Below are positions 3,730 to 60,628 of a DNA stretch of 64,000 nucleotides, piece after piece. The translations under genes and the position numbers were made by a program. Source of the DNA: Pengzhenrongella frigida (GTDB taxonomy: Bacteria; Actinomycetota; Actinomycetes; Actinomycetales; Cellulomonadaceae); the NCBI RefSeq assembly GCF_004168625.1, contig NZ_SDWW01000014.1:1-64000 (forward strand), written 5' to 3'. Below the pieces are notes generated by a model. That model saw only the letters and a list, made by a program, of their open reading frames with translations, was not told where the DNA came from and searched no databases. Numbering within the stretch: position 1 is the stretch's first letter; the number at the start of each line of letters is the position of its first letter.

Positions 3730-5004
3730 TCAGGACGCGGTCGACACCGCCAGGGCGATGTCCGACCGGTGGTGCGAGCCGGGCAGGGCGATCTGCTCGA
3801 CGCCGGCGTACGCCGCCGCGCGGGCCGCCGCCAGGTCCGGGCCGACACCGACCACGGAGAGCACGCGTCCCCCGGCGGCGACGAGCGAACCGCCGTCGGA
3901 GAGCGCCGTGCCCGCGTGCAGCACGTGCACCCCCTCGACCTGCTCGGCGGCCTCGATCCCGGTGATCGGGTCGCCGCCGCGGGCCGACTCGGGGTACCCG
4001 TGCGCGGCCACGACGACGGTCACCGCGGCCGCCTTGCGCCAGCGCAGCGGCGGCACGTCGGCGAGGTGCCCGGTCGCCGCGGCGTGCAGCACGCCCGCGA
4101 GCGGGGTCTTGAGCCGGGCGAGCACCACCTGCGTCTCGGGGTCGCCGAACCGGGCGTTGAACTCGACCACACGCATGCCCCGACTCGTCATCGCGAGGCC
4201 GACGTAGAGCACGCCGGTGAACGGGATCCCGCGGCGGGCCATCTCGTCGACGGTCGGCTGCGCGACGCGCTCGAGCACGTCGGCGACCAGGCCCTCGGGT
4301 GCCCACGGCAGCGGCGAGTACGCGCCCATGCCGCCGGTGTTCGGGCCGGCATCGCCGTCGTGCGCGCGCTTGAAGTCCTGCGCCGGCGCGAGCGGCACGA
4401 CCGTGACACCGTCGGTCAGGCAGAACAGCGAGATCTCCGGCCCGTCGAGGTACTCCTCGATCAGCACGGTCCCGCCGGGCTTGTCCAGGCAGGACGCGGC
4501 GTGCGCGAGCGCCTCGGCCCGGTCGGACGTGACCACCACGCCCTTGCCGGCGGCCAGACCGTCGTCCTTGACGACGTGCGGCGCGCCGAACGCGTCGAGC
4601 GCGTCGGCGACCTCGGCGAGGGTGGTGCACACGTGGGCCATCGCGGTGGGCACCCCGGCGAGGGCCATGACCTCCTTGGCGAAGGCCTTCGACCCCTCGA
4701 GCACGGCGGCCTCGGCGCTGGGGCCGAAGCACGCGATCCCGGCGTCGCGGACGGCGTCGGCCACCCCGGCGACCAGGGGCCCCTCGGGGCCGACGACGAC
4801 GAGATCGGCACCGAGGGACGTCGCCAGCGCGGCGACGGCGGCGCCGTCGAACGCGTCGACGTCGTGCAGCTCGGCGAGCTCGCCGATCCCCGGGTTGCCC
4901 GGGGCGGCGTGCAGCTCGTGGGGCGCACCCCCGTCGGGCCCGACGGCGAGTGCGCGGACGAGGGCGTGTTCGCGGGCGCCGGTCCCCACCACAAGAATCT
5001 TCAC
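3730..5004 (-). CDS. purD: Phosphoribosylamine-glycine ligase (GAR synthetase)
   Basis: Catalyses the second step of de novo purine synthesis, joining phosphoribosylamine and glycine with ATP. It has 424 residues, the usual monofunctional length. Visible are the N-terminal [29 protein letters not shown], the ATP-grasp segment [14 protein letters not shown], the signature [12 protein letters not shown] and RFGDPETQ. The start is GTG at 5004. It lies upstream of purC and 153 bp downstream of pckG, with a long inverted repeat in that gap that probably separates the transcripts. Confidence 0.97.
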
Positions 5005-5076
5005 CCGGACAACCTATCGGCCCGGCAGACCCCCGGCAGACCCCTGGCAGACCCTCAGCCGACTCCGAAAAGCCCC

Positions 5077-5140
5077 CGCCGAGAAGGTGAATCCCGTCCG
5101 AACACGCCGTTGTAGTCGGACGGGAATCACCCCCTCGGCG
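5077..5140. terminator. Long inverted repeat between pckG and purD, probable terminator
   Basis: Outer arms CGCCGAG (5077-5083) and CTCGGCG (5134-5140) enclose a 16-bp stem. Its arms are GGTGAATCCCGTCCGA (5086-5101) and TCGGACGGGAATCACC (5116-5131), with one A/A mismatch and a 14-base loop. It starts just after the pckG stop and ends about 70 bp before purD, which fits a pckG terminator. No U-tract is present, as is common in actinobacteria. The CGCCGAG ends resemble the arms of the repeat at 14902-14965. Confidence 0.65.
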
Positions 5141-5157
5141 AGGTGGGTCGAGGCGGG

Positions 5158-7053
<1,896 letters not shown>

Positions 7054-7143
7054 GCGATCGGCCTCTCACAGCGGGGGACATCTCGGCGTGTTGTTCTTCC
7101 ACCCTCCGCTCGAGGCGCACACTTTTCCACCCGAGTTGCCGAG

Positions 7144-7159
7144 AAGAATCGCCGTTCTT
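7144..7159. promoter_or_regulatory. Inverted repeat in the pckG/regulator intergenic region, candidate operator
   Basis: AAGAA-TCGCCG-TTCTT is a perfect 5-bp inverted repeat with a 6-base spacer, 17 bases before the regulator's ATG and about 90 bases before pckG. It lies in a locally AT-richer stretch between divergent genes. A role as autoregulatory or pckG operator is inferred from position only. Confidence 0.35.
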
Positions 7160-7175
7160 GCTCTAGCGTCAAGTC

Positions 7176-8687
7176 ATGGTCCCCACCCCGCGCTCCACCC
7201 CCCTGGCCGACGACGACGGCGCCGACGGCGACCCGGCGGTCGACGCGGGCGCTGCGGCACCCGACCTGATCACCCTCGGTCGCCGGATCCGACACTTCCG
7301 CACGGAACGATCCTTCACGCTCGACCGGCTGTCCGCCGCGGTCGGCACGGCCTCGAGCCAGCTCTCGCTGATCGAGAACGGGCACCGCGAGCCCCGCCTG
7401 TCGCTCCTGCGCGCCATCGCTGCCGCGCTCGACGTGCCGCTCGCGGACCTGCTGGCCGCCGAGCCGCCGAGCCGCCGGGCCGCGCTCGAGATCGCCCTCG
7501 ACCGGGCCCAGCGCGGCTCGCTGTACGCCTCCCTCGGCCTGCCGCCGGTCCGTCCGGGCCGCAAGCTGCCGGTCGAGGCGCTCGAGTCGCTCGTCGGGCT
7601 GCACACCGAGCTGGCCCGGCGCGCGAACCAGTCGATCGCCACCCCGGAGGAGGCGCGCCGGGCGAACACCGAGCTGCGGCTGTGGATGCGGAGCAAGGAC
7701 AACTACCTGCCCGACATCGAGCAGCTCGGCGAGGACATGGTGCGGGCAGCCGGGTACACCGTGGGGGCCGTCACGCACCGGGCGGTGGCACGGATGGCCG
7801 AACAGCTCGGGTTCACGATCATCCACGTGCGCGACCTGCCGCACTCGACCCGGACCGTCACCGACCTCGCGAACGGGCGGATCTACCTGCCGCCCGCGTC
7901 GATCCCGGGCGGGCACGGCCTGCGGTCGCTCGCGCTGCAGGCGGTCGCGCACCGGGTGCTCGGCCACGAGCGGCCGGCAAGCTACGCCGACTTCCTGCGG
8001 CAGCGGGTCGAGATCAACTACTTCGCCGCGGCCGCGCTCATCCCCCGCACCGCGGCGCTCGACTACCTGTCCGCGGCGAAGAAGGAGAAGGACCTGGCGA
8101 TCGAGGACTTCCGCGACGCGTTCGGCGTCACGCACGAGGCGGCCGCGCACCGGTTCACGAACCTCGCGACCGTCCACCTCGGTCTGCCTGTGCACTTCCT
8201 GCGGGTGGGCGACGACGGCGCGCTGTACCGCGGGTACGAGAACGACCGGGTGGGCTTCCGCACGGACCCGACCGGCGCGATCGAGGGGCAGCTGGTGTGC
8301 AAGCACTGGGCGGCGCGGGCGGCCTTCGCCCGGCGGGACCGCACCACCGAGTTCCACCAGTACACCGACACCCCGAACGGCACGTTCTGGTGCACCACCC
8401 AGACCGGGGCGACGTCGTCAGGCCCGTTCTCGATCACCGTGGGGGTGCCGTACGCGCACTCGAAGTGGTTCCGTGGCCGCGAGACGACCCGGCACACGGT
8501 GTCGCGCTGCCCGGACGACACCTGCTGCCGGCGCCCGCCGGCCGACCTGGCCTCGCGCTGGTCCGACCAGTCCTGGCCGAGCGCGCGCCTGCACTCGCAG
8601 ATCCTCGCGCCGCTGCCGCAGGGCAGGTTCCCGGGGGTCGACGACACGGACCTGTACGCCTTCCTCGAACGGCACGCCACGAGCTGA
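7176..8687 (+). CDS. RamB/ScfR-like transcriptional regulator (XRE HTH with IrrE-like and DUF2083 domains)
   Basis: Cytoplasmic DNA-binding regulator of 503 residues. An XRE-type helix-turn-helix (about residues 30-90: LGRRIRHFRTERSFTLDRLS to LSLIENGHREPRLSLLRAIA) is followed by a helical linker and an ImmA/IrrE-like domain. The protease motif of that domain is degenerate (AVAHRVLGHE rather than HExxH). The C-terminal short-chain-fatty-acid-regulator domain contains paired cysteines (CPDDTCC). Family members such as RamB of Corynebacterium control acetate and propionate metabolism genes. Its divergence from pckG suggests control of gluconeogenic carbon flow. No Shine-Dalgarno precedes the ATG and TCTAGCGT lies close upstream, so the mRNA may be leaderless. 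Confidence 0.85.
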   Translation: MVPTPRSTPLADDDGADGDPAVDAGAAAPDLITLGRRIRHFRTERSFTLDRLSAAVGTASSQLSLIENGHREPRLSLLRAIAAALDVPLADLLAAEPPSRRAALEIALDRAQRGSLYASLGLPPVRPGRKLPVEALESLVGLHTELARRANQSIATPEEARRANTELRLWMRSKDNYLPDIEQLGEDMVRAAGYTVGAVTHRAVARMAEQLGFTIIHVRDLPHSTRTVTDLANGRIYLPPASIPGGHGLRSLALQAVAHRVLGHERPASYADFLRQRVEINYFAAAALIPRTAALDYLSAAKKEKDLAIEDFRDAFGVTHEAAAHRFTNLATVHLGLPVHFLRVGDDGALYRGYENDRVGFRTDPTGAIEGQLVCKHWAARAAFARRDRTTEFHQYTDTPNGTFWCTTQTGATSSGPFSITVGVPYAHSKWFRGRETTRHTVSRCPDDTCCRRPPADLASRWSDQSWPSARLHSQILAPLPQGRFPGVDDTDLYAFLERHATS

Positions 8688-8715
8688 CCGCCGCCCCGCA
8701 CCCCACCGGCGGCGG
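8688..8715. terminator. Bidirectional hairpin between convergent regulator and purA
   Basis: CCGCCGCC (8688-8695) and GGCGGCGG (8708-8715) form a perfect 8-bp GC stem with a 12-base loop. It fills most of the 35-bp gap between the two convergent stop codons, the usual place for a shared terminator. Confidence 0.65.
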
Positions 8716-8722
8716 CCTGCGG

Positions 8723-10009
<1,287 letters not shown>

Positions 10010-10140
10010 CTGATTCCCACTCTCGCCCTGCCTTGGTGGCTGGCACCCGGTCGAACCGCGTCAGCCGGGGCCCGGACGGCAGTGGCCCGGAACCCCGGAT
10101 AGAGGTTACCTGAGGGCACGACGGCGGCGTGGGCCCCGTC

Positions 10141-10184
10141 TCAGCGCAGCGGCCGGTCAGCGCTGCGCAGCCGGTCAGCGCAGG
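10141..10184. repeat. Short direct repeats around the 3' end of the DUF3151 gene
   Basis: The element GCCGGTCAGCGC occurs twice within about 30 bp, and CAGCGCAG or close variants occur three times. The block spans the TGA of the DUF3151 gene. It looks like local tandem duplication; no function is evident. Confidence 0.5.
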
Positions 10185-10630
10185 GCGGCGACCTCCGCCG
10201 GGGTCGTGCCCGAGTCGAGCAGGAGCTGCGCGCACCGTTCGGCCTCCGGGGCCTCGCCGATCGCGGCGGCCGCCTCCGACAGGGCGAGCACGGCCCGCAG
10301 CACGCCCTGGTTCGGCACGTGGTCGACCGGGACGGGTCCCTGGCCGCGCCAGCCCGCGCGGCGCAGCGCGTCGAGACCGCGGTGGTACCCGGTGCGGGCA
10401 TAGGCGTAGGCGGCGACCGGGTCGGACGCACCGCCGCCGGCCGGCGCGAGGGCCTCCTCCGCGAGCAACGCCCACAGGTACGACGACGCCGGCTCGTGGC
10501 GGACGACGTCGCGCACCTCGGCCCCGGCCGCGAGCGCCGCGCGGGCCGCGGTATCGGGGTGCGTGGCAGGCAGGAGCACGGGGGCCGGGCCGTCGAGGAG
10601 GTTGCGGGAGGTCGGGTGTTCGAGGCTCAT
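10175..10630 (-). CDS. DUF3151 family protein
   Basis: Small cytoplasmic protein of 151 residues from an actinobacteria-specific family of unknown function. From the ATG at 10630 it reads MSLEHPTSRNLLDGP, then a helical Ala-rich region with family-like segments YLWALLAEEAL, AYAYARTGYHRGLDALRRAGW and VPVDHVPNQGVLRAVLAL. It lacks a signal peptide, membrane segments and cysteines. It is the next gene upstream of purA on the same strand, 165 bp away, which may be coincidental. The frame remains open 13 codons further upstream, but that extension looks non-coding. Confidence 0.85.
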   Translation of the reverse strand: MSLEHPTSRNLLDGPAPVLLPATHPDTAARAALAAGAEVRDVVRHEPASSYLWALLAEEALAPAGGGASDPVAAYAYARTGYHRGLDALRRAGWRGQGPVPVDHVPNQGVLRAVLALSEAAAAIGEAPEAERCAQLLLDSGTTPAEVAALR

Positions 10631-11386: not shown

Positions 11387-12406
<1,020 letters not shown>

Positions 12407-12480
12407 CGACGGATCTCCTCAGACGTGTTCGGGTGTGGTGATTTTCGCTTCGATTCTGGCACGGATGAACGCCGCGTGGC

Positions 12481-51691: not shown

Positions 51692-52984
51692 ATGTCGTGG
51701 TCCGAATGGCTCAGTCTCATCGCCCTGGTGCTCGCCGGCGGGGCGCTCCTGCTCTCGTTGTCGACCCGTCGCACGGCCGGGGAGCAGGCGGCTCGACGCC
51801 TCCTGGCGCCGCGGTCCGGGCCCGGCGCGGCGGCCACCGAGCCGCCCCTGCCCCCGCCGCCGCCGGCCGGCGACCTGGTCGCCTTCATCGCCAACCCGAC
51901 CAAGCCGGGGGCGAGCGAGCTGCGCGAGGCCGCCATCAAGGAGTGCACCGGGCGGTCCATGCCCGAGCCCCTGTGGCTCGAGACGACGGCCGAGGACCCG
52001 GGAGTCGGTCAGGCGCGCCACGCGATCGAGCTCGGCGCGGTCGCGGTGGTCGCGGTGGGCGGCGACGGTACGGTCCGCGCGGTCGCGGAGGCCCTCGCCG
52101 GCACCGGCGTGCCGATGGGGCTCATCCCGCAGGGCACCGGAAACCTGCTTGCCCGCAACCTGGATCTGCCGCTCACCGACACCCCCGAGCTCCTGCGACT
52201 CGCGCTGACGGGCGCGGGCCGCGCGATCGACGTCGGCTGGCTACGCGTCATCCGCGAGGCCCCGGACGAGCCGGACGACGACACCGAGCCCGAGGACGAC
52301 GCCGTGTCGGACGACGGCCCGGATTCCGAGAGCACCAGATCTGATGACGGCGCTGAGTCTGATGACGGCGCTAGGTCTGATGACGGCACTGAGTCTGATG
52401 ACGGCACGGTGTCGGGCGACAGCGCACCGCCCGCGGCGGACGCACCCGCCGAGCCGGCGCGCGAGCACATCTTCCTGGTCATCGCGGGCCTGGGGTTCGA
52501 CGCCGCGATGGTGGCGGACACCGACGAGGACCTCAAGGCGCGGGTCGGGTGGATCGCGTACTTCGTCGCCGGAGCGCGTCACCTGCACGGTCGTCGGCCG
52601 CGGCTGACGATCAAGATCGACGACGATCCGGTCGTCTCCCGCCGGGTGCGGAGCCTGCTGATCGGGAACTGCGGGCGCCTGCCGGGCGGCATCACGCTGC
52701 TCCCCGACGCCGTGCTCGACGACGGCTGGCTCGACATCGCGGCGATCGACACGCGGGGCGGGCTCGCCGGCTGGGCCCAGCTGCTCGGCGAGGTCGTCCT
52801 CCAGGGTGTCGGGATGCGCAACGATCTCCGGGGCAAGATCGGCCGGATCGACCACGTGCGGGCCCGTCGCATCCACGTGGTCGCCGACCGCGCGGAGGCG
52901 GTCCAGGTCGACGGCGACGTCCTCGGCCGCGCCCTGGAGATCATCGCGAGAGTGGACGCCGGCGCGCTGATCGTCCGCGCCTGA
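51692..52984 (+). CDS. Diacylglycerol-kinase-like lipid kinase with N-terminal membrane helix and acidic insert
   Basis: A DagK/YegS-family lipid or sphingosine-type kinase of 430 residues. It begins with a membrane anchor (WLSLIALVLAGGALLLSLS), a Pro-rich linker (PPLPPPPP), then the catalytic fold: FIANPTKPG, VVAVGGDGTVRAVAEALAG (nucleotide loop) and MGLIPQGTGNLLARNL. An acidic segment of about 70 residues (roughly 191-262), containing [AERT]-S-D-D-G-[AT] repeats, interrupts the usual substrate domain before IFLVIAGLGFDAAMV. The C-terminus VQVDGDVLG is conserved. The insert probably loops out of the fold. Confidence 0.88.
   Translation: MSWSEWLSLIALVLAGGALLLSLSTRRTAGEQAARRLLAPRSGPGAAATEPPLPPPPPAGDLVAFIANPTKPGASELREAAIKECTGRSMPEPLWLETTAEDPGVGQARHAIELGAVAVVAVGGDGTVRAVAEALAGTGVPMGLIPQGTGNLLARNLDLPLTDTPELLRLALTGAGRAIDVGWLRVIREAPDEPDDDTEPEDDAVSDDGPDSESTRSDDGAESDDGARSDDGTESDDGTVSGDSAPPAADAPAEPAREHIFLVIAGLGFDAAMVADTDEDLKARVGWIAYFVAGARHLHGRRPRLTIKIDDDPVVSRRVRSLLIGNCGRLPGGITLLPDAVLDDGWLDIAAIDTRGGLAGWAQLLGEVVLQGVGMRNDLRGKIGRIDHVRARRIHVVADRAEAVQVDGDVLGRALEIIARVDAGALIVRA
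52337..52408 (+). repeat. Four tandem 18-bp units inside the lipid kinase gene
   Basis: Units 52337-52354, 52355-52372, 52373-52390 and 52391-52408 each contain GTCTGATGACGGC or GATCTGATGACGGC with small changes. They encode six-residue repeats around SDDG. The length is a multiple of 3, so copy-number change would keep the frame. The TCTGATGA core is visibly less GC-rich than the flanking gene. Confidence 0.9.
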
Positions 52985-52999
52985 CCCGCCTCGACCGGT

Positions 53000-53953
53000 T
53001 CAGCAACCCCTGCGCAGGGTGGCCAGCCAGTCACGGGCGGCAGCGAAGTCGGCGTCGTTGGTGCCCGGGGCGACCTCGGTCACCGCGCCGTCGGCCCTGG
53101 GGTAGGACCCGAGGAAGCGCACGTGCGGGCACACGCGGTGCAACCCGATCAGCGCCTCCGCGACCCGCTCGTCGGCGAGGTGGCCCTCGGCGTCGATCGA
53201 GAACGAGTACCGGCCGAGCAGGTCGCCGAGCGGCCGCGACTCGATCCGCGACAGGTTGACCCCGCGCGCGGCGAACTGCTCGAGCATCGCGAGCAGGGCG
53301 CCCGACTCGTTGCTGGCCAGGTGCACCACGAGGGAGGTCTTGTCCGCGCCGGTCGGGGCCGGCAGGGCGCCGGGCAGGCCGACGACGACGAACCGGGTCA
53401 CGGCCGACTCGTTGTCCGCGACGTGCTCGGCGAGGATCTCGAGCCCGTAGAGCTCGGCGCTGAGCGGTGCGACCAGCGCCGCGTCGAACCCGGGGTCGTG
53501 CTCCGGCGCGAGGTCCGCGAGCAGCGCGCCCGCAGCGGCGGTCGAGGTCGCCGGGACGTGCACGGCGACCGGGAGGTTCACGTTGAACCAGCGCCGGCAC
53601 TGCGCCCAGGCGTGCGGGTGGGTCGACACCCGCGTGACGTCGGCGAGCACCGTCCCCGGCCGGGCCGCGAGCACGAACGACACCGGGACCACCACCTCGC
53701 GCAGCAGCACGAGCGCGTCCCCGGTCGCGAGCGTGTCGAGGGTCGCGGTGACGCCACCCTCGACGGAGTTCTCGATGGGCACGACGGCGAAGTCCGCGCG
53801 CCCCGAGCGCACGGCCTCGAGCGCGGAGATGACGTCGACCATCGGGACGTACTCGGCCTCGTCCGGCCCGGCGAACTGCCGCAGCGCCGCCTCGGTGAAC
53901 GTCCCCGCAGGTCCGAGGTAGGCGTAGCGCGGCAGGCGGGTCGGACCGGACAT
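53000..53953 (-). CDS. pheA: Prephenate dehydratase
   Basis: Converts prephenate to phenylpyruvate in phenylalanine synthesis. A stand-alone PDT of 317 residues with no chorismate mutase domain. Visible are YLGPAGTFTEAAL, VPIENSVEGGVTATLD, the catalytic TRF motif in ESAVTRFVVVG and an ACT regulatory domain with LSRIESRPLGDLLGRYSF (the phenylalanine-binding ESRP). The ATG at 53953 has AAGGAG 8 bases upstream. A very stable stem-loop lies in its leader. Confidence 0.96.
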   Translation of the reverse strand: MSGPTRLPRYAYLGPAGTFTEAALRQFAGPDEAEYVPMVDVISALEAVRSGRADFAVVPIENSVEGGVTATLDTLATGDALVLLREVVVPVSFVLAARPGTVLADVTRVSTHPHAWAQCRRWFNVNLPVAVHVPATSTAAAGALLADLAPEHDPGFDAALVAPLSAELYGLEILAEHVADNESAVTRFVVVGLPGALPAPTGADKTSLVVHLASNESGALLAMLEQFAARGVNLSRIESRPLGDLLGRYSFSIDAEGHLADERVAEALIGLHRVCPHVRFLGSYPRADGAVTEVAPGTNDADFAAARDWLATLRRGC

Positions 53954-53974
53954 CAGCGGTCTCCTTCAGAAGCG

Positions 53975-54002
53975 GAACGTCGGCGGGGTGCCGCCGACGT
54001 TC
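53975..54002 (-). promoter_or_regulatory. Stable stem-loop in the pheA leader
   Basis: GAACGTCGGCGG (53975-53986), GGTG and CCGCCGACGTTC (53991-54002) form a perfect 12-bp stem with a 4-base loop. On the pheA transcript it ends about 22 bases before the ATG and 10 before the AAGGAG. It could control pheA translation or end read-through. No Phe-rich leader peptide was seen, and no U-run follows. Confidence 0.65.
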
Positions 54003-54049
54003 GCGCCGGAGGCGGGCCGAGCCTAACGCGCCGCCCGTAGGCTGGGCCG

Positions 54050-56497
54050 ATGCCCCGTCCCCCCGGCCTCGTCCGTGCCGTCTCCGCCGCGGCGGCAGTG
54101 ACGGTCGGGGTGCTGGCGGTCTTCGGCGGGGCCCTGCCGGCCGGCGCTGTTGGTGCCACGGCCGGCGACACGGTGGCCGCCGCGGTTGCCGCCGCGGAGA
54201 GCGAGCCGAACCCCGTCGTCGTCATCGGCGCGACCGGGCTGCGCTGGGAGGACGTCGGCGCGCTCACCACCCCCGCGCTGTGGGACCTCTCCCGCACCGG
54301 AGCGGTGGGCACGATCGCGGCGCGCAGCCTGCGTCCGTCCGCCTGCCCGGCCGACGGCTGGCTCGCCGTCTCCGCCGGTGCCCGCGCCTCCGACCTGGCC
54401 AGCGACCCCTACGGCACGTGTCGACGGCTCCGCGAGCCGGGTACCGACCTTCTCGTCCCCGGCTGGGCCGACTACCTCGAGTCCGCCGCCCAGGGGAACT
54501 ACGGCGCGCAGCCCGGTCTGCTCGGGGACACCCTGGCCTCGGCCGGCGTGACCGCCACCGGGGTCGGACCCGGGGCCGCCGTCGCGCTGGCCGACTCGGA
54601 CGGCCGACCGGTCGGCGAGCACGTGCGCCTGCCGGCGACGGCCAATGGGCTGACCAAGACCGTCGAGACGGCCCTCGAGACGTCCCAGCTCGTGGTGATC
54701 GACGTCGGCACGGTCCGCGACCCCGGCCAGCTCACCGTCGACCGACCGGCGTCCGCCCTGGACACCGACGGCGACGGCCAGCCCGACCCGGGGGCCACCG
54801 CGCTCCCCGAGCCCGGCGAGATCCTCGAAGGTGACCTCACCGCCCCCGACGCGGTGACCGAACCGGCGCGCTCGGAACAGGTCCGGACCATCGACGAGCG
54901 CATCCGCGCCGTGCTCGAGGCCGTCGACGAGTCCGGTCAGGACACCACCGTGCTCGTCGCGTCGCTCGCCGACTCGGGCCGACAGCCGCACCTGCAGCTC
55001 GCGGCCGCAGCCGGGCCGAGCGCGCTCGCGACCGGGGAGCCGTACGAGGAGAACCTGCTCGAGTCGCGCTCGACCCGCCAGCCCGGGTACCTCATGCCGA
55101 CGGACATCACGCCGACCATCCTGTCCGCGCTCGACCTCCGGGACCAGGTGACCCCCGGTGCCCTGGTGGGGTCACCCGCGACCGGTGTGCCCGGCCCGCC
55201 GCTCGCGAGCCAACGGGTCGCCGCGATGGTCGACCAGGACCGGCACGCCTGGGCGGTCCGGCCCCTGGTGGCGCCGTTCTTCATGCTCCTCATCGTCATC
55301 AACCTCATCCTGTACGGCCTGGTGACCCTCGGCCTGAACGGCGTCGTCCTCGCGCGGCTGAGCAGCGGACTGAGCCGCGCGCTGCCGGGCCGGATCGGGC
55401 GCGCGGTCGCGGACGGGATGACGAGCCAGCCGGGGATGGTCCTCGGCGCGCTCCGGATCGCCGGCGTCGCCGTCGCGTCCATCCCCGTGGCGACGTTCCT
55501 GGCCAACCTCACGCCGTGGTGGCGCGTCCAGCCGGCGTCGTACGCGCTGACCGCGCTCATCATCGGCTGGGTCGCCGTCATCACGGCGCTCGCGCTGCTG
55601 CCGCGCTGGAAGTCGTGGCTGCTCGGACCGCTCGGGGTCGTCGCGGCGATCACCGCCGCCGTCATCGCCGTCGACATCGCCACCGGCGCGCGGCTCCAGA
55701 TCTCTGCGCTGATGGGTGTCCAACCGCTGGTGGGCGCCCGGTTCTACGGGTTCAACAACCAGGCATTCGCGTTGTTCGCCGCGTCGACCGTCCTGCTCGC
55801 CGTCGCGTTCGCCAACCCGCTGGTCAAACGCGGACGGCCGGGCTGGGCGGCGGCGGTCGTCGCCATCGTCGGCGTGGTGGCCACCGCGCTCGACGGACTT
55901 CCGAGCGTCGGCGCCGACTTCGGCGGCCCCCCGGCGCTCGTGCCCGCGTTCGCGGTGCTGGCCCTGCTCGCCGGGGGGATCCGGATCGGCTGGGTCAAGG
56001 CGCTGGGAATCCTCGGTGCCGCGGCCGCCGTCGTCATCAGCTTCGCGGTGGTCGACTGGCTGCGGCCCGCCGACTCCCAGACGCACCTCGGTCGCTTCGT
56101 GCAGACCGTGCTCGACGGCGGGATCTGGCCGGTGATCACCCGCAAGGCCTCCCAGAACATCGAGATCCTGTTCGGCAACGCGCTGACCCTGCTCGCCATC
56201 GCGGGCATCGCGCTCGTCGTCCTCGTGCTCGGCCGGCCGTTGCGGGCCATCGCGAGCGCGCCCGACGGCGGGCCGTTCGGCTGGCTCTCGGCCGGCGCGC
56301 CGCTCACACAGCTCGGCACCGATGCGCCGATGCTCCGTCCGGGGCTGGTCGCGCTGGCGATCGCCCTCGGGATCGGCTTCGCCCTCAACGACTCGGGCGT
56401 CGTCATCCCCGCGGTGGGCATCACGGTGGTCGTCCCGCTGCTGGTGGCCGCCTGCGCGGGCTGGATGCTGAGCGTCCGCCCCCGCCAGCCGCGCTGA
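54050..56497 (+). CDS. Large membrane protein with alkaline-phosphatase-like extracellular domain
   Basis: An 815-residue protein. A signal-anchor (about 8-35) leads to an extracytoplasmic domain of about 370 residues resembling an alkaline-phosphatase/sulfatase fold. It opens PVVVIGATGLRWEDVGAL, has RPSACPADGWLAVSAGARA, and closes TDITPTILSALDLRDQ. From about residue 405 to the end come 10 or so transmembrane helices. I cannot name the function; related proteins occur in actinobacteria near cell-envelope glycan genes. The neighbouring family 2 glycosyltransferase, convergent with it, hints at an envelope polymer or lipid role. Confidence 0.75.
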   Translation: MPRPPGLVRAVSAAAAVTVGVLAVFGGALPAGAVGATAGDTVAAAVAAAESEPNPVVVIGATGLRWEDVGALTTPALWDLSRTGAVGTIAARSLRPSACPADGWLAVSAGARASDLASDPYGTCRRLREPGTDLLVPGWADYLESAAQGNYGAQPGLLGDTLASAGVTATGVGPGAAVALADSDGRPVGEHVRLPATANGLTKTVETALETSQLVVIDVGTVRDPGQLTVDRPASALDTDGDGQPDPGATALPEPGEILEGDLTAPDAVTEPARSEQVRTIDERIRAVLEAVDESGQDTTVLVASLADSGRQPHLQLAAAAGPSALATGEPYEENLLESRSTRQPGYLMPTDITPTILSALDLRDQVTPGALVGSPATGVPGPPLASQRVAAMVDQDRHAWAVRPLVAPFFMLLIVINLILYGLVTLGLNGVVLARLSSGLSRALPGRIGRAVADGMTSQPGMVLGALRIAGVAVASIPVATFLANLTPWWRVQPASYALTALIIGWVAVITALALLPRWKSWLLGPLGVVAAITAAVIAVDIATGARLQISALMGVQPLVGARFYGFNNQAFALFAASTVLLAVAFANPLVKRGRPGWAAAVVAIVGVVATALDGLPSVGADFGGPPALVPAFAVLALLAGGIRIGWVKALGILGAAAAVVISFAVVDWLRPADSQTHLGRFVQTVLDGGIWPVITRKASQNIEILFGNALTLLAIAGIALVVLVLGRPLRAIASAPDGGPFGWLSAGAPLTQLGTDAPMLRPGLVALAIALGIGFALNDSGVVIPAVGITVVVPLLVAACAGWMLSVRPRQPR

Positions 56498-56584
56498 CTC
56501 ACGGCGGCGCGGACTCACCCGACCTCGCGGGCACGACGACACGCGGGTGCGACGACGCAGGCGTGACCGGCGTGCGAGTCGGCG

Positions 56585-57598
56585 CTATCGGTGGGTCGGG
56601 GGGACGTGCGGCGGGGCGACCTTGTCCCGGATAGCGCCCGCGGCGCCGCGCACGCGTCGGTTCGTCACCGCGAGCATGACGTCGCGGTACTGGGCTGCGC
56701 GGTGCAGCTGGCCCTTCAGATCGGTGCCCGACGGGCGGTGCCGCAGCTCGCACGGCACCTCGACCGCCACGTAGCCCTGCCGGAGCAGGTCGATCGTCAT
56801 CCCGGTCTCGACGCCCCAGCCGCGTGCGAGCGGCGTGGCGGCCTCGAAGGCTTCGCGGGTCAGGCAACGCATCCCGGACAGCGGCTGCGTCGGCGTCCAG
56901 CCGGTGAGCGACGCGATCGCCCGACGTGCGGCGCCGACGACGATCCCACGCCCGCCCGCCCCGACCTGCGGCGGCAGCAGCGCGATGGACAGGTCGGCGG
57001 CGTGCTCGAACACGGGCGGAACCAGGGGTGCGGTGTTCACGGCGCTGTCACCCAGGTCGCCGTCGATGAACAGCAGCAGCCGCGGCGGCCGGTCCTCGGT
57101 GTCACGCATCGCGACGATCGCCGCGCCCGTCTCCATGGCGGCGGCCTTGCCGCGGTTGTGCGAGTGGCGCACCACGACGGCGCCCGCCTCGCGTGCGACG
57201 TGCTGCGTGTTGTCCGCGCTGCCGTCGTCGACGACGAGCACGAGGTCGACGTGGGGGATCGCGCGTGCCGACCGGACCGTCGCGGCGATCCGGCGGGCCT
57301 CGTCCTTGGCCGGGATGATCACGGCGACCCGCTGACGGGGTCGACCGGCGTGGGCGACCTTGTGCGTCGGGGAGGTGATGCCCGGGCCCGGGGCCGCCGC
57401 GCCGCGCGCAGCCTTGCGCAGCTTGCGACCGCGCCTGCCCTTGACCGGAGTCGACTCGGCCGCGCCGTCGGCGAGACTCTCGTCGGCGCCGCTCTCAAGT
57501 CCGGCGCTCTCAGGTCCGGGAGCCCCGACCTCGGCGGCGTCGACCGCCCGGTCCCCTGCCCCCGCACCCTCGCCGGTTCCGGCCGTCTCCCCAGTCAC
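56585..57598 (-). CDS. Family 2 glycosyltransferase, DPG/dolichyl-phosphate-like
   Basis: A 337-residue GT-A glycosyltransferase. The first 85 residues are low-complexity (Gly/Ala/Glu, then a basic KGRRGRKLRKAARG patch). The catalytic domain follows with VAVIIPAKDEARRIAATV, LVLVVDDGSADNTQHVAR, HNRGKAAAMETG, LLLFIDGDLGDS (the DxD-like metal site) and PLSGMRCLTREAF. There are no transmembrane helices; the basic patch may bind membrane. The pattern is like glucosyl-3-phosphoglycerate or polyprenyl-phosphate sugar transferases. The start is the GTG at 57598, with AGGG 10 or so bases upstream; another GTG lies 3 codons upstream. Confidence 0.85.
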   Translation of the reverse strand: MTGETAGTGEGAGAGDRAVDAAEVGAPGPESAGLESGADESLADGAAESTPVKGRRGRKLRKAARGAAAPGPGITSPTHKVAHAGRPRQRVAVIIPAKDEARRIAATVRSARAIPHVDLVLVVDDGSADNTQHVAREAGAVVVRHSHNRGKAAAMETGAAIVAMRDTEDRPPRLLLFIDGDLGDSAVNTAPLVPPVFEHAADLSIALLPPQVGAGGRGIVVGAARRAIASLTGWTPTQPLSGMRCLTREAFEAATPLARGWGVETGMTIDLLRQGYVAVEVPCELRHRPSGTDLKGQLHRAAQYRDVMLAVTNRRVRGAAGAIRDKVAPPHVPPTHR

Positions 57599-57660
57599 GA
57601 GTTCCACCCTAGCCACGCGTGCCGGCTGGGCCGTGCCGCCGCGCTCCCGGTCGGCACCGA

Positions 57661-58488
57661 TCAGCGCAGGGTGACCTGGCGGGAGACGAGCCCCGCGCGG
57701 GCCCGACGGGCGTTGGAGTCGAGCGGGGACGTGTCCGCGAGCGCCGCCTCGAGCCGGGTGAGGAACTCGCGCGCGGGCTCCTCCACGTCGGCCGCCTCGG
57801 TGCCGGGCGTGAGGTCCCAGACGGGGACGACGACGCCGGTCGAACGGAAGTACCCGACGAGCTTGCCGCCGGCGATCCCGGCCTCGCGGGCCCCGTGCAG
57901 CCGGGCGAGCGCGTCGACGAGCTGCTGCTCGTCGTACGGCATGGCCCACCGCAGGTACTCGCGGTCGCGCATGCGGCACCAGTACGCGGAGTCCACGCCG
58001 GAGAGCTTGGTCGTCGGGATGATGGACTCGTTCGCCTGCTCGAGCGACGCCCGGACCTCATCGTTGACGTCGGTGTCAGGCGCGAGCCAGTAGTCGAAGC
58101 CGTCGTGGACGGTGACGTCGAACGGCACGGTCGGGTCGAGCACGTCCTGGAGCCGCGGGCCGGGGCCGGGGGCGGTCGCCGTGTCGACCGGCGTCCCGGG
58201 CTCGAGCTCGAGCGCCTCGAGCAGCACGGCGGCGACGTCGCGGCTCGGGTCGCCGAACCCGGAGCTGGTCTGCAGGGCGACGAGCACGACGCCGTCGGCC
58301 CGGTGCAGGGCAGGCCACGCCATCGGCAGCACGGTGGTGATGACGACGTCGCGGGAGCCGTACTCCGCGGTCGTGCGTGCGGTCGCGGTGGCGGCGGGGA
58401 CGACCTCGCGCATCGCGACCCAGTCGGGCTCGCCGGCGAGCCCCTCGAACGGGCGCAGCACGAACTCGACAGAAGGTTTCTTGGCCAT
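57661..58488 (-). CDS. DUF5926-like conserved actinobacterial protein
   Basis: A 275-residue soluble protein, MAKKPSVEFVLRPFEGLAG at the start. It contains EPDWVAMREVVPAATATA, VVITTVLPMAWPALHRADG, HDGFDYWLAPD and YWCRMRDREYLRWAMPYDE; I recognise the pattern as the DUF5926 family, whose function is unknown. No cysteine-rich SEC-C tail is present in this copy. It is the gene upstream of the glycosyltransferase on the same strand, 62 bp apart, so the two may be cotranscribed. Confidence 0.75.
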   Translation of the reverse strand: MAKKPSVEFVLRPFEGLAGEPDWVAMREVVPAATATARTTAEYGSRDVVITTVLPMAWPALHRADGVVLVALQTSSGFGDPSRDVAAVLLEALELEPGTPVDTATAPGPGPRLQDVLDPTVPFDVTVHDGFDYWLAPDTDVNDEVRASLEQANESIIPTTKLSGVDSAYWCRMRDREYLRWAMPYDEQQLVDALARLHGAREAGIAGGKLVGYFRSTGVVVPVWDLTPGTEAADVEEPAREFLTRLEAALADTSPLDSNARRARAGLVSRQVTLR

Positions 58489-58541
58489 CCCCGCAGCGTA
58501 CCGGCGTCCTGCCCGACCCCACCCATCCGCCCCCGAGGGGT

Positions 58542-58880
58542 CTAGGTGACGGGGAGGCCGGCGCGGGCCCAGGCGACCATGCCGCCGTCGAGGTTCGCCG
58601 CGTCGTACCCGGCGCCGTTGAGCCAGGCCGTGGCGCGTGCGGAGCGGGTGCCGGAGTGGCACACGAGGAGCAGGCGCCCGCCGACGGGGAGCTCGCCCAC
58701 GCGTGCCGTCAGGTCGCCGAGCGGGACGTGCACCGCACCCGGCGCGTGCCCCTCGTCCCACTCGCTCCGCTCGCGCACGTCCACCAGCGTCGTGCCGGTC
58801 GCGATGGGCGCGGTCGGGTCGAGGTCGGCAGGGACGACGGCGGGAACCGGCGAGAGCATCGGGACCAGAGGCGAGGACAT
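58542..58880 (-). CDS. Rhodanese-like domain protein
   Basis: A single rhodanese domain of 112 residues, likely a sulfurtransferase. The active loop is [13 protein letters not shown] with Cys74, and [22 protein letters not shown] is the CH2A-like opening; [15 protein letters not shown] closes the fold. It has no signal peptide. It is 53 bp upstream of the DUF5926-like gene on the same strand and divergent from pgm. Confidence 0.92.
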
Positions 58881-58942
58881 CGCGCCAGACTACGGGTCGG
58901 ACGCTGCGGCGCTCCCGGCACAGGAGTGAGAGCATCGACGCC

Positions 58943-60628
<1,686 letters not shown>

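Follow-up and report, generated by a model that had tools for sequence, protein, structure and literature searches.

The window analysed here, the first 64,000 nucleotides of contig NZ_SDWW01000014.1 of Pengzhenrongella frigida, belongs to a 4.3 Mb genome (99.94% complete) and carries an open reading frame (ORF), with an ATG start codon, for an 815-residue protein in which a domain resembling the alkaline phosphatase (ALP) superfamily precedes a multi-helix membrane domain (Table 1). An earlier note, made from the sequence alone, had described a membrane protein of this length with a family 2 glycosyltransferase (GT2) convergent and close by, and the two ORFs bear this out, their stop codons lying 87 bp apart. 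We propose, with moderate confidence, that the protein is an outer-face transferase, either a polymerase or a ligase, of an undescribed lipid-linked envelope glycan pathway, in which the ALP-like domain would serve as a non-catalytic cap. Homologues of the ALP gene occur in 51 of 59 relatives (own genome included), with 69–76% identity in four other genomes of the genus, and in at least 101 of 296 genomes of a phylum sample (own included; E ≤ 1e-5, at most three candidates scored per genome), and thereby rule out a chance ORF. The family is widespread in Actinomycetota, the phylum that the family searches covered, yet a Pfam search with the window protein yielded nothing below E 0.17, and neither NCBIfam nor, by sequence, the PDB gave a match.

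The AlphaFold2 model of the whole protein, built with 67 sequences, has a mean predicted local distance difference test score (pLDDT) of 88.8 and a predicted template-modelling score (pTM) of 0.89, and shows a helix (residues 9–26), an alpha/beta domain (50–383) and then a helix bundle. The bundle agrees with the about 10 C-terminal helices of the earlier note, the count being 11 by our reading of the AlphaFold2 helix list. In the inside and outside loops, which we assigned ourselves from that list, Lys and Arg make up 13 of 95 inside and 7 of 87 outside residues (ALP domain left out), and five of the seven outside are conserved (R564, R672, R682, R698 and K699). The same topology follows from the GT2 fusions described below, where a cytoplasmic-type enzyme stands before the first helix, implying that the equivalent N-terminal helix there is an uncleaved transmembrane (TM) segment.

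Residue conservation was counted in 129 aligned sequences, weighted to Cellulomonadaceae and with partly overlapping source genomes. R564 is present in all 129, D542 in 128, N570 in 127, H679 and D781 in 126, N780, R698 and S782 in 125, D623 and D669 in 124 and R672 in 123, while position 699 is Lys in 119 and Lys or Arg in 125. In the predicted topology, all of these near-invariant polar residues lie within outer loops or at the adjoining outer helix ends, and positions conserved to at least 95% number 21 in the membrane part and 9 in the outer domain. According to PMC10920833, the GT-C_B superfamily is marked by conserved residues on the outer face, a long C-terminal outer loop, one or two Arg and an Asp, Glu or His. 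As far as can be tested on the model, these traits fit the membrane part, where conserved residues are predicted on the outer face and a long predicted outer loop near the C-terminus (residues 671–710) holds H679, R698 and K699. Undecaprenyl diphosphate is bound in RodA and WaaL by an Arg that sits on a short helix parallel to the membrane (PMC10449877); R698, on helix 692–709, is a candidate equivalent by analogy.

Folded alone with AlphaFold2 (pLDDT 87.7, pTM 0.89), the membrane domain was compared by VIA-align with 993 candidate chains, and the first seven of the 50 rows listed were all WaaL, RodA or FtsW at Z 7.8–8.7, a chance-possible range, as helix-bundle scores below about 13 may reflect a common arrangement. 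The top row was WaaL (7tpg, Z 8.7, 5.0 Å over 251 residues), with RodA (6bar 8.6, 6bas 8.5), RodA-PBP2 (6pl6 7.9, 8tj3 7.9, 6pl5 7.8) and FtsW (8p1u, 7.8) also among the seven; 218–252 residues were aligned, within 11–425 of 432. A designed pore came eighth (Z 7.6, 109 residues), followed by unrelated folds, many of them G-protein-coupled receptors, at 6.8 or less; the absence of GT-C_A, MFS and others from these rows does not speak against those families. In a published comparison, a GT126 model superposed on 7TPG (WaaL) at 5.3 Å over 192 residues (PMC10920833). Because the first seven rows all belong to one superfamily, the modelled membrane domain is likely to be kin to GT-C_B.

The outer domain is more readily placed. 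A profile search matched NPP 7mw8 (E 4e-5) and sulfatase 9fvt (E 0.009), Foldseek gave 25 matches at E ≤ 0.001 (best E 8e-5), and VIA-align aligned NPPs, iPGMs and sulfamidase at Z 19–20 over 226–253 residues and 3.0–4.4 Å (top Z 19.9; iPGM and NPP-type enzymes over 226–248 residues at 3.1–3.6 Å). The modelled domain is thus of ALP-superfamily fold, as the earlier note had supposed, and not an unrelated one. A Pfam search of 28 members at E ≤ 0.01 found PF01663 in two and SGSH_C in three, the families listed being only PF16347, PF01663 and PF04199; PF00884 (LtaS/sulfatase type) matched neither the window protein (E ≤ 1) nor the 28 members (E ≤ 0.01), and PF04987 (glycosylphosphatidylinositol (GPI) ethanolamine-phosphate transferases of PIG-N type) likewise matched none of them. 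Aligned by HMMER with the Xanthomonas NPP, T62 stands opposite the zinc-binding Asp (D54) of that enzyme, and D308-S309 opposite its second-metal Asp-His. Position 62 is T in 43 of the 129 sequences, P in 36, G in 20, A in 18, S in 7, R in 2, D in 2 (both in GT2 fusions) and X in 1; position 309 is never His; and position 98, opposite the nucleophile, is T in 57, A in 36, S in 21, P in 11, R in 3 and N in 1. D218 is Asp in 117 and D308 in 90. C99 and C124 are both present in 90 sequences, both lacking in 37 and found singly in 2, a co-occurrence that suggests a disulfide rather than a nucleophile.

Because the zinc Asp, the second-metal His and the nucleophile are not conserved, the outer domain is, judging from the alignment, most likely not a two-metal hydrolase. 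The residues of a catalytic ALP member are missing (strand-1 Asp in 2 of 129 sequences, second-metal His in none, and various residues at the nucleophile position), so that the incomplete metal site which the earlier note had suspected in one protein extends across the family. It could still be argued that the domain is an active phosphotransferase or phosphatase like LtaS, EptA or PIG-N, given its ALP fold, the partial retention of D218 and D308, and the example of YejM, at one time judged inactive but reported since then as a Mg-dependent phosphatase (PMC7576196); YejM, however, keeps its threonine and Asp. We consider this very unlikely for the present family, in which the zinc Asp is replaced in 126 of 129 sequences (D in 2, X in 1), the second-metal His is absent from all 129, the nucleophile position varies and more of the most strongly conserved positions are found in the membrane part.

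The convergent partner is indeed a family 2 glycosyltransferase (PF00535, E 1.4e-13), and its translation shows the basic patch (KGRRGRKLRKAAR) noticed earlier directly upstream of the GT2 domain, the core of which resembles AglJ, GpgS and PpgS models below cut-off. The first ~105 residues (57661–57979) of the listed ORF overlap, in another frame, the next ORF on the minus strand (57661–58992) and are probably non-coding. Regions were fetched for 40 of the 50 other ALP-positive relatives, and 38 of these contain a GT2 (missing in L054 and L069): in 35 it is encoded on the other strand, the two 3' ends pointing at each other, at distances from adjacent to about 7 kb, and in three (L056, L058 and L059) it is co-directional with the ALP gene. 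In the phylum sample, where GT2 was scored at E ≤ 1e-20, 63 genomes have both genes, 38 ALP only, 22 GT2 only and 173 neither (Fisher p 1e-19, uncorrected for ancestry), and the two lie within 10 kb of each other in 18 of the 63, in several orientations. The taxonomic order to which genome G328 belongs has a protein that unites GT2, TM, ALP and membrane domain in a single ORF. A search of 59 genomes for such fusions matched 41, many by the GT2 part alone, and all parts stood in one frame at 14 of the 20 best loci, representing 14 genomes and 14 genera; in 40 further regions around GT2 matches from the phylum sample, gene calling recovered GT2 in 22 and no other fusion. Mere relatedness as the source of the synteny can be set aside, since GT2 stays linked to the ALP gene where the orientation has changed and also occurs fused to it. 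We therefore regard the GT2 link as real, and the neighbourhood conservation proposed as a check in the earlier note is found in 38 of 40 regions and in 14 one-gene fusions.

The protein also occurs in duplicated form. Ten of the 40 relatives encode a single ORF with two ALP and membrane copies (L051, L052, L053, L056, L059, L066, L067, L074, L075 and L076; 1424–1565 residues), as do four of 80 scan loci (L161, L164, L167 and L170), giving an overall range of 1424–1566 residues. D542, R564, H679, K699, N780 and D781 are mostly kept in both fused copies; D669 or R698 is missing from some N-terminal copies, and two N-terminal copies are truncated. The two-copy form suggests that the protein may work as a pair.

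Table 1. Features of the ALP locus, in coordinates of the window
Feature	Position	Strand	Evidence
YegS/DAGK-type lipid kinase, recurrent neighbour	51692..52984	+	PF00781 E 6e-17; 5/60 wider-phylum loci
815-residue protein: N-terminal anchor, ALP-like outer domain, 11-TM membrane domain	54050..56497	+	ORF, AlphaFold2 model, homologues
N-terminal hydrophobic helix, residues 9–26, anchor or signal peptide	54074..54127	+	Secondary structure of model
ALP-superfamily outer domain, residues 50–383, zinc ligands lost; Cys99/Cys124 probable disulfide	54197..55198	+	Fold, residue counts
Membrane domain, residues 384–815, GT-C_B-like by VIA-align second look	55199..56494	+	AlphaFold2, VIA-align; no significant Foldseek match
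RFYGxxN motif, residues 564–570, predicted outer loop TM4-TM5	55739..55759	+	R564 129/129, G567 129/129, N570 127/129
GADFGG motif, residues 621–626, short predicted outer loop	55910..55927	+	D623 124/129
THLGRF...RK, residues 678–699, part of long predicted outer loop	56081..56146	+	H679 126, R698 125, K699 119 of 129
NDSG motif, residues 780–783, between TM10 and TM11, predicted outer face	56387..56398	+	N780 125, D781 126, S782 125 of 129
GT2 ORF, convergent partner; GT2 domain ~56588–57352; real start probably at or below ~57660	56585..57979	-	ORF, Pfam

The wider neighbourhood was surveyed in 60 ALP-positive loci of the phylum, 58 of them from other classes, comprising 20 chosen loci (nine because a GT2 was near) and 40 hand-picked down the hit list, with many short-contig loci left out. 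Since the neighbour profiles were built mainly from the first 20, the counts for all 60 are partly circular, and those for the hit-list 40 are given second: phosphoglycosyltransferase (PGT) 33 and 20, family 4 glycosyltransferase (GT4) 33 and 24, SteB 32 and 19, PyrG 31 and 19, SteA 29 and 18, RecN 22 and 14, MurJ 22 and 16, GT2 14 and 5, DAGK 5 and 4. Outside the window's own class, the ALP gene often stands between steA-steB and pyrG, together with PGT, MurJ and GT4, and in one example locus Pfam recognised SteA-like_C, MctB (SteB), MurJ, glycosyl transferases group 1 and CTP synthase, with a weak PF00953 match for the PGT. Residues D86, D87, N170, N173, D176, G224, D225 and G227 of the PGT are invariant in 15 sequences, in keeping with the DD, NxxN and GDxG motifs of MraY/WecA (PNPT) enzymes; PF00953 is found in 8 of the 15 at E ≤ 0.01 (best 2.4e-7). 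By these features the neighbouring PGT is a WecA/MraY-like member of the PNPT family. At L194, two divergent ALP-family genes (4046–6142, minus strand; 6269–8389, plus strand) lie between steB-GT2 and GT4-PGT-pyrG.

Relatives of the window have this string in two parts, ALP-GT2 near serS-DAGK-pheA and steA-steB-PGT-MurJ elsewhere, the latter in all 15 of the 15 best loci; in L059, GT2, DAGK and ALP follow in close succession on one strand. The window's own genome has the steA-steB-PGT-MurJ string on contig C51 (L455, G000:C51:42043-45843), whereas the window is part of contig C32. The L455 string carries a second MurJ paralogue, and another MurJ lies on contig C40. Among the relatives, ALP and PGT are both present in 49 genomes, ALP only in 2, PGT only in none and neither in 8, PGT absence meaning no match better than 1e-5; the co-occurrence tests are uncorrected for shared ancestry. 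The two ALP-positive genomes without PGT (G031 and G047) are drafts, 91% and 89% complete.

The SteA-SteB neighbourhood, the dead-looking ALP domain and the fusion to GT2 across the membrane might also be expected of a regulatory or scaffold pseudoenzyme that senses an outer lipid-linked or wall glycan and controls GT2 or SteAB/RipA-type hydrolases without catalysis, SteAB being a wall-hydrolase regulator (PMC6705760, PMC12977500). This is quite improbable in our view, as ten near-invariant polar residues would hardly be retained from class to class in a protein that served only as a scaffold, and the most conserved positions are concentrated in the membrane part (21 against 9 in the outer domain, at 95% or above).

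Several observations weigh against the proposed transferase, beginning with the low Z range of the membrane domain. A Foldseek search of the PDB with this domain gave nothing significant (best E 0.48, an ABC transporter), and WaaL and SEDS proteins were absent among the 50 matches listed. By hhalign the signal was 0.4% to SEDS and 4.6% to WaaL, with controls at 1.0% (MFS), 0.1% (MurJ), 0.1% (PMT_2) and 2.4% (SEDS-MFS); since the positive control, SEDS-WaaL, also failed (4.9%), this profile comparison is uninformative. The sets were drawn from relatives, shorter ORFs being dropped (loci kept: SEDS 25/30, WaaL/PF04932 26/30, MurJ 18/25, PMT_2 18/25, MFS 21/25). As regards linkage, 38 ALP-positive genomes lack a GT2 at E ≤ 1e-20 and 22 GT2-positive genomes lack an ALP match; the cassette varies in make-up, with steB-murJ-GT4-ALP-PGT-pyrG complete and on one strand in 12 of the 60 loci; neither SteB nor PyrG is present in 26 of the 60, so the family also lives elsewhere; the pathway genes of the window genome lie on two contigs and not in one operon; and in three ALP-negative relatives the PGT was scored as absent despite weak partial matches (E 6e-4 to 8e-4). 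Genome G240, counted as GT2 only, does carry an ALP gene near its GT2, so that the 22 include at least one false negative, and we do not count these GT2-only genomes as counter-evidence.

For the membrane domain, an HMM-profile search of the PDB returned one chance-level match (E 1.2), and Foldseek against BFVD returned none that was significant (best E 0.059). The best BFVD match was A0A3G2KG04, an uncharacterised 434-residue protein of Arthrobacter phage Faja (probability 0.87); phage Faja was not among the matches listed by a tblastn search with the membrane domain against phage records. The top Foldseek rows against the PDB include many transporters, all weak, and together with the conservation beside GT2 and lipid-glycan genes they would suit a transporter, flippase or scramblase that handles a lipid-linked glycan beneath an ALP cap and forms no bond itself. 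We regard such a role as unlikely, given that a MurJ-type flippase is already encoded in 22 of the 60 loci and in the window genome, that the conserved polar residues cluster at the predicted outer face and do not span the bilayer, and that GT-C_B enzymes were ranked first by VIA-align.

From the computed fold, conservation, linkage, fusion and co-occurrence we infer the steps of the transferase pathway as follows. The PGT would start a polyprenyl-diphosphate-linked sugar, GT2 and GT4 would lengthen it inside the cell, and MurJ would flip the lipid-linked glycan. The 11-TM, GT-C_B-like domain might then bind the diphosphate through R564 and R698/K699 and move the glycan to a growing chain or wall acceptor, the base being H679 or an Asp, while the ALP domain would act as a non-catalytic cap holding the acceptor, a glycan or a wall protein. 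The link to SteA-SteB may indicate use at the division septum, which is the weakest step. The earlier note had suggested release or transfer of a phospho-group on an envelope lipid or glycan; this is not supported, as the strongest conservation lies mostly in the membrane part, the first-ranked structural neighbours of that part are lipid-diphosphate-glycan transferases and the wider gene surroundings often form a lipid-linked glycan cassette. A broader proposal, which we offer tentatively and think rather doubtful as a whole, is that of a widespread actinobacterial pathway coupled to SteA-SteB, with a PNPT-family PGT, GT2/GT4, a dedicated MurJ paralogue and the ALP protein as founder of a new GT-C_B-like polymerase or ligase family. 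The dead ALP domain would be an acceptor clamp, the product on the septal wall would direct cutting by SteAB/RipA-type hydrolases, and the two-copy fusions would be built-in dimers.

Scanning genomes with a single peptide pattern (CP..GWL type) gave 423 stretches, 400 of them relatives; the best 80 of the 423 were retained, and the closest named relatives among these are Cellulomonas. One contig titled Proteobacteria (L127, JAKBFW010000136.1) encodes a relative that is 51% identical, and is most likely a misnamed actinobacterial metagenome-assembled genome. A record labelled 'Bacteriophage sp.' (L463, MT835771.1; unverified, from human faeces) has an ALP-family gene at 8010–10209 (plus strand) with a convergent GT2 at 11658–12459 (minus strand); this arrangement is the bacterial one, and the record is probably a mislabelled bacterial contig. 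A plasmid search gave one Nonomuraea record, and a scan of positions 53900–57800 for promoters and terminators found none.

No description of the ALP family or its cassette was found among the titles and beginnings of abstracts listed in a literature search. If the proposed role is correct, the lipid-diphosphate-using glycosyltransferases, which include SEDS proteins and O-antigen ligases, would gain a new family, missing steps of an envelope glycan pathway would be given names, and the SteA-SteB division genes would gain a biochemical partner outside Mycobacteriales. Among known systems, the NPPs and iPGM share the fold of residues 50–383 (Z ~20; profile E 4e-5), whereas the metal ligands and nucleophile are not conserved in the ALP protein and its domain is fused to 11 TM helices. 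In the GPI ethanolamine-phosphate transferases PIG-N/O/G, an ALP domain at the N-terminus precedes a membrane domain of many TM helices, the same order as in the ALP protein. These enzymes need an intact metal site, and they differ in that neither a Pfam match nor sequence kinship to them was found. LtaS, EptA and YejM/PbgA likewise combine an outer ALP-fold domain with a membrane domain in the bacterial envelope. In LtaS and EptA, however, the TM helices precede the ALP domain, and in all three the threonine/metal site is reported intact, whereas in the ALP protein the domain order is reversed and the site lost. YejM has five TM helices before its ALP domain (PMC7576196). The SteA-SteB cell-separation genes are neighbours of the ALP family in other classes and of PGT-MurJ in the window genome; in Clostridia, steAB lies downstream of spo0A (PMC12977500), and the word 'glycosyltransferase' does not occur in the main text of PMC6705760 or of PMC12977500. 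WaaL (GT121) and RodA/FtsW (GT119), of clan GT-C1/GT-C_B, resemble the membrane domain in having 10–12 TM helices, conserved outer-face residues, a long C-terminal outer loop and Arg plus acidic residues or His (PMC10920833). The ALP protein differs from them in lacking detectable sequence kinship, in carrying an ALP-like domain before its membrane part, in having GT2 fused or adjacent, and in its own motifs, RFYGxxN, HLGR...RK and NDSG.

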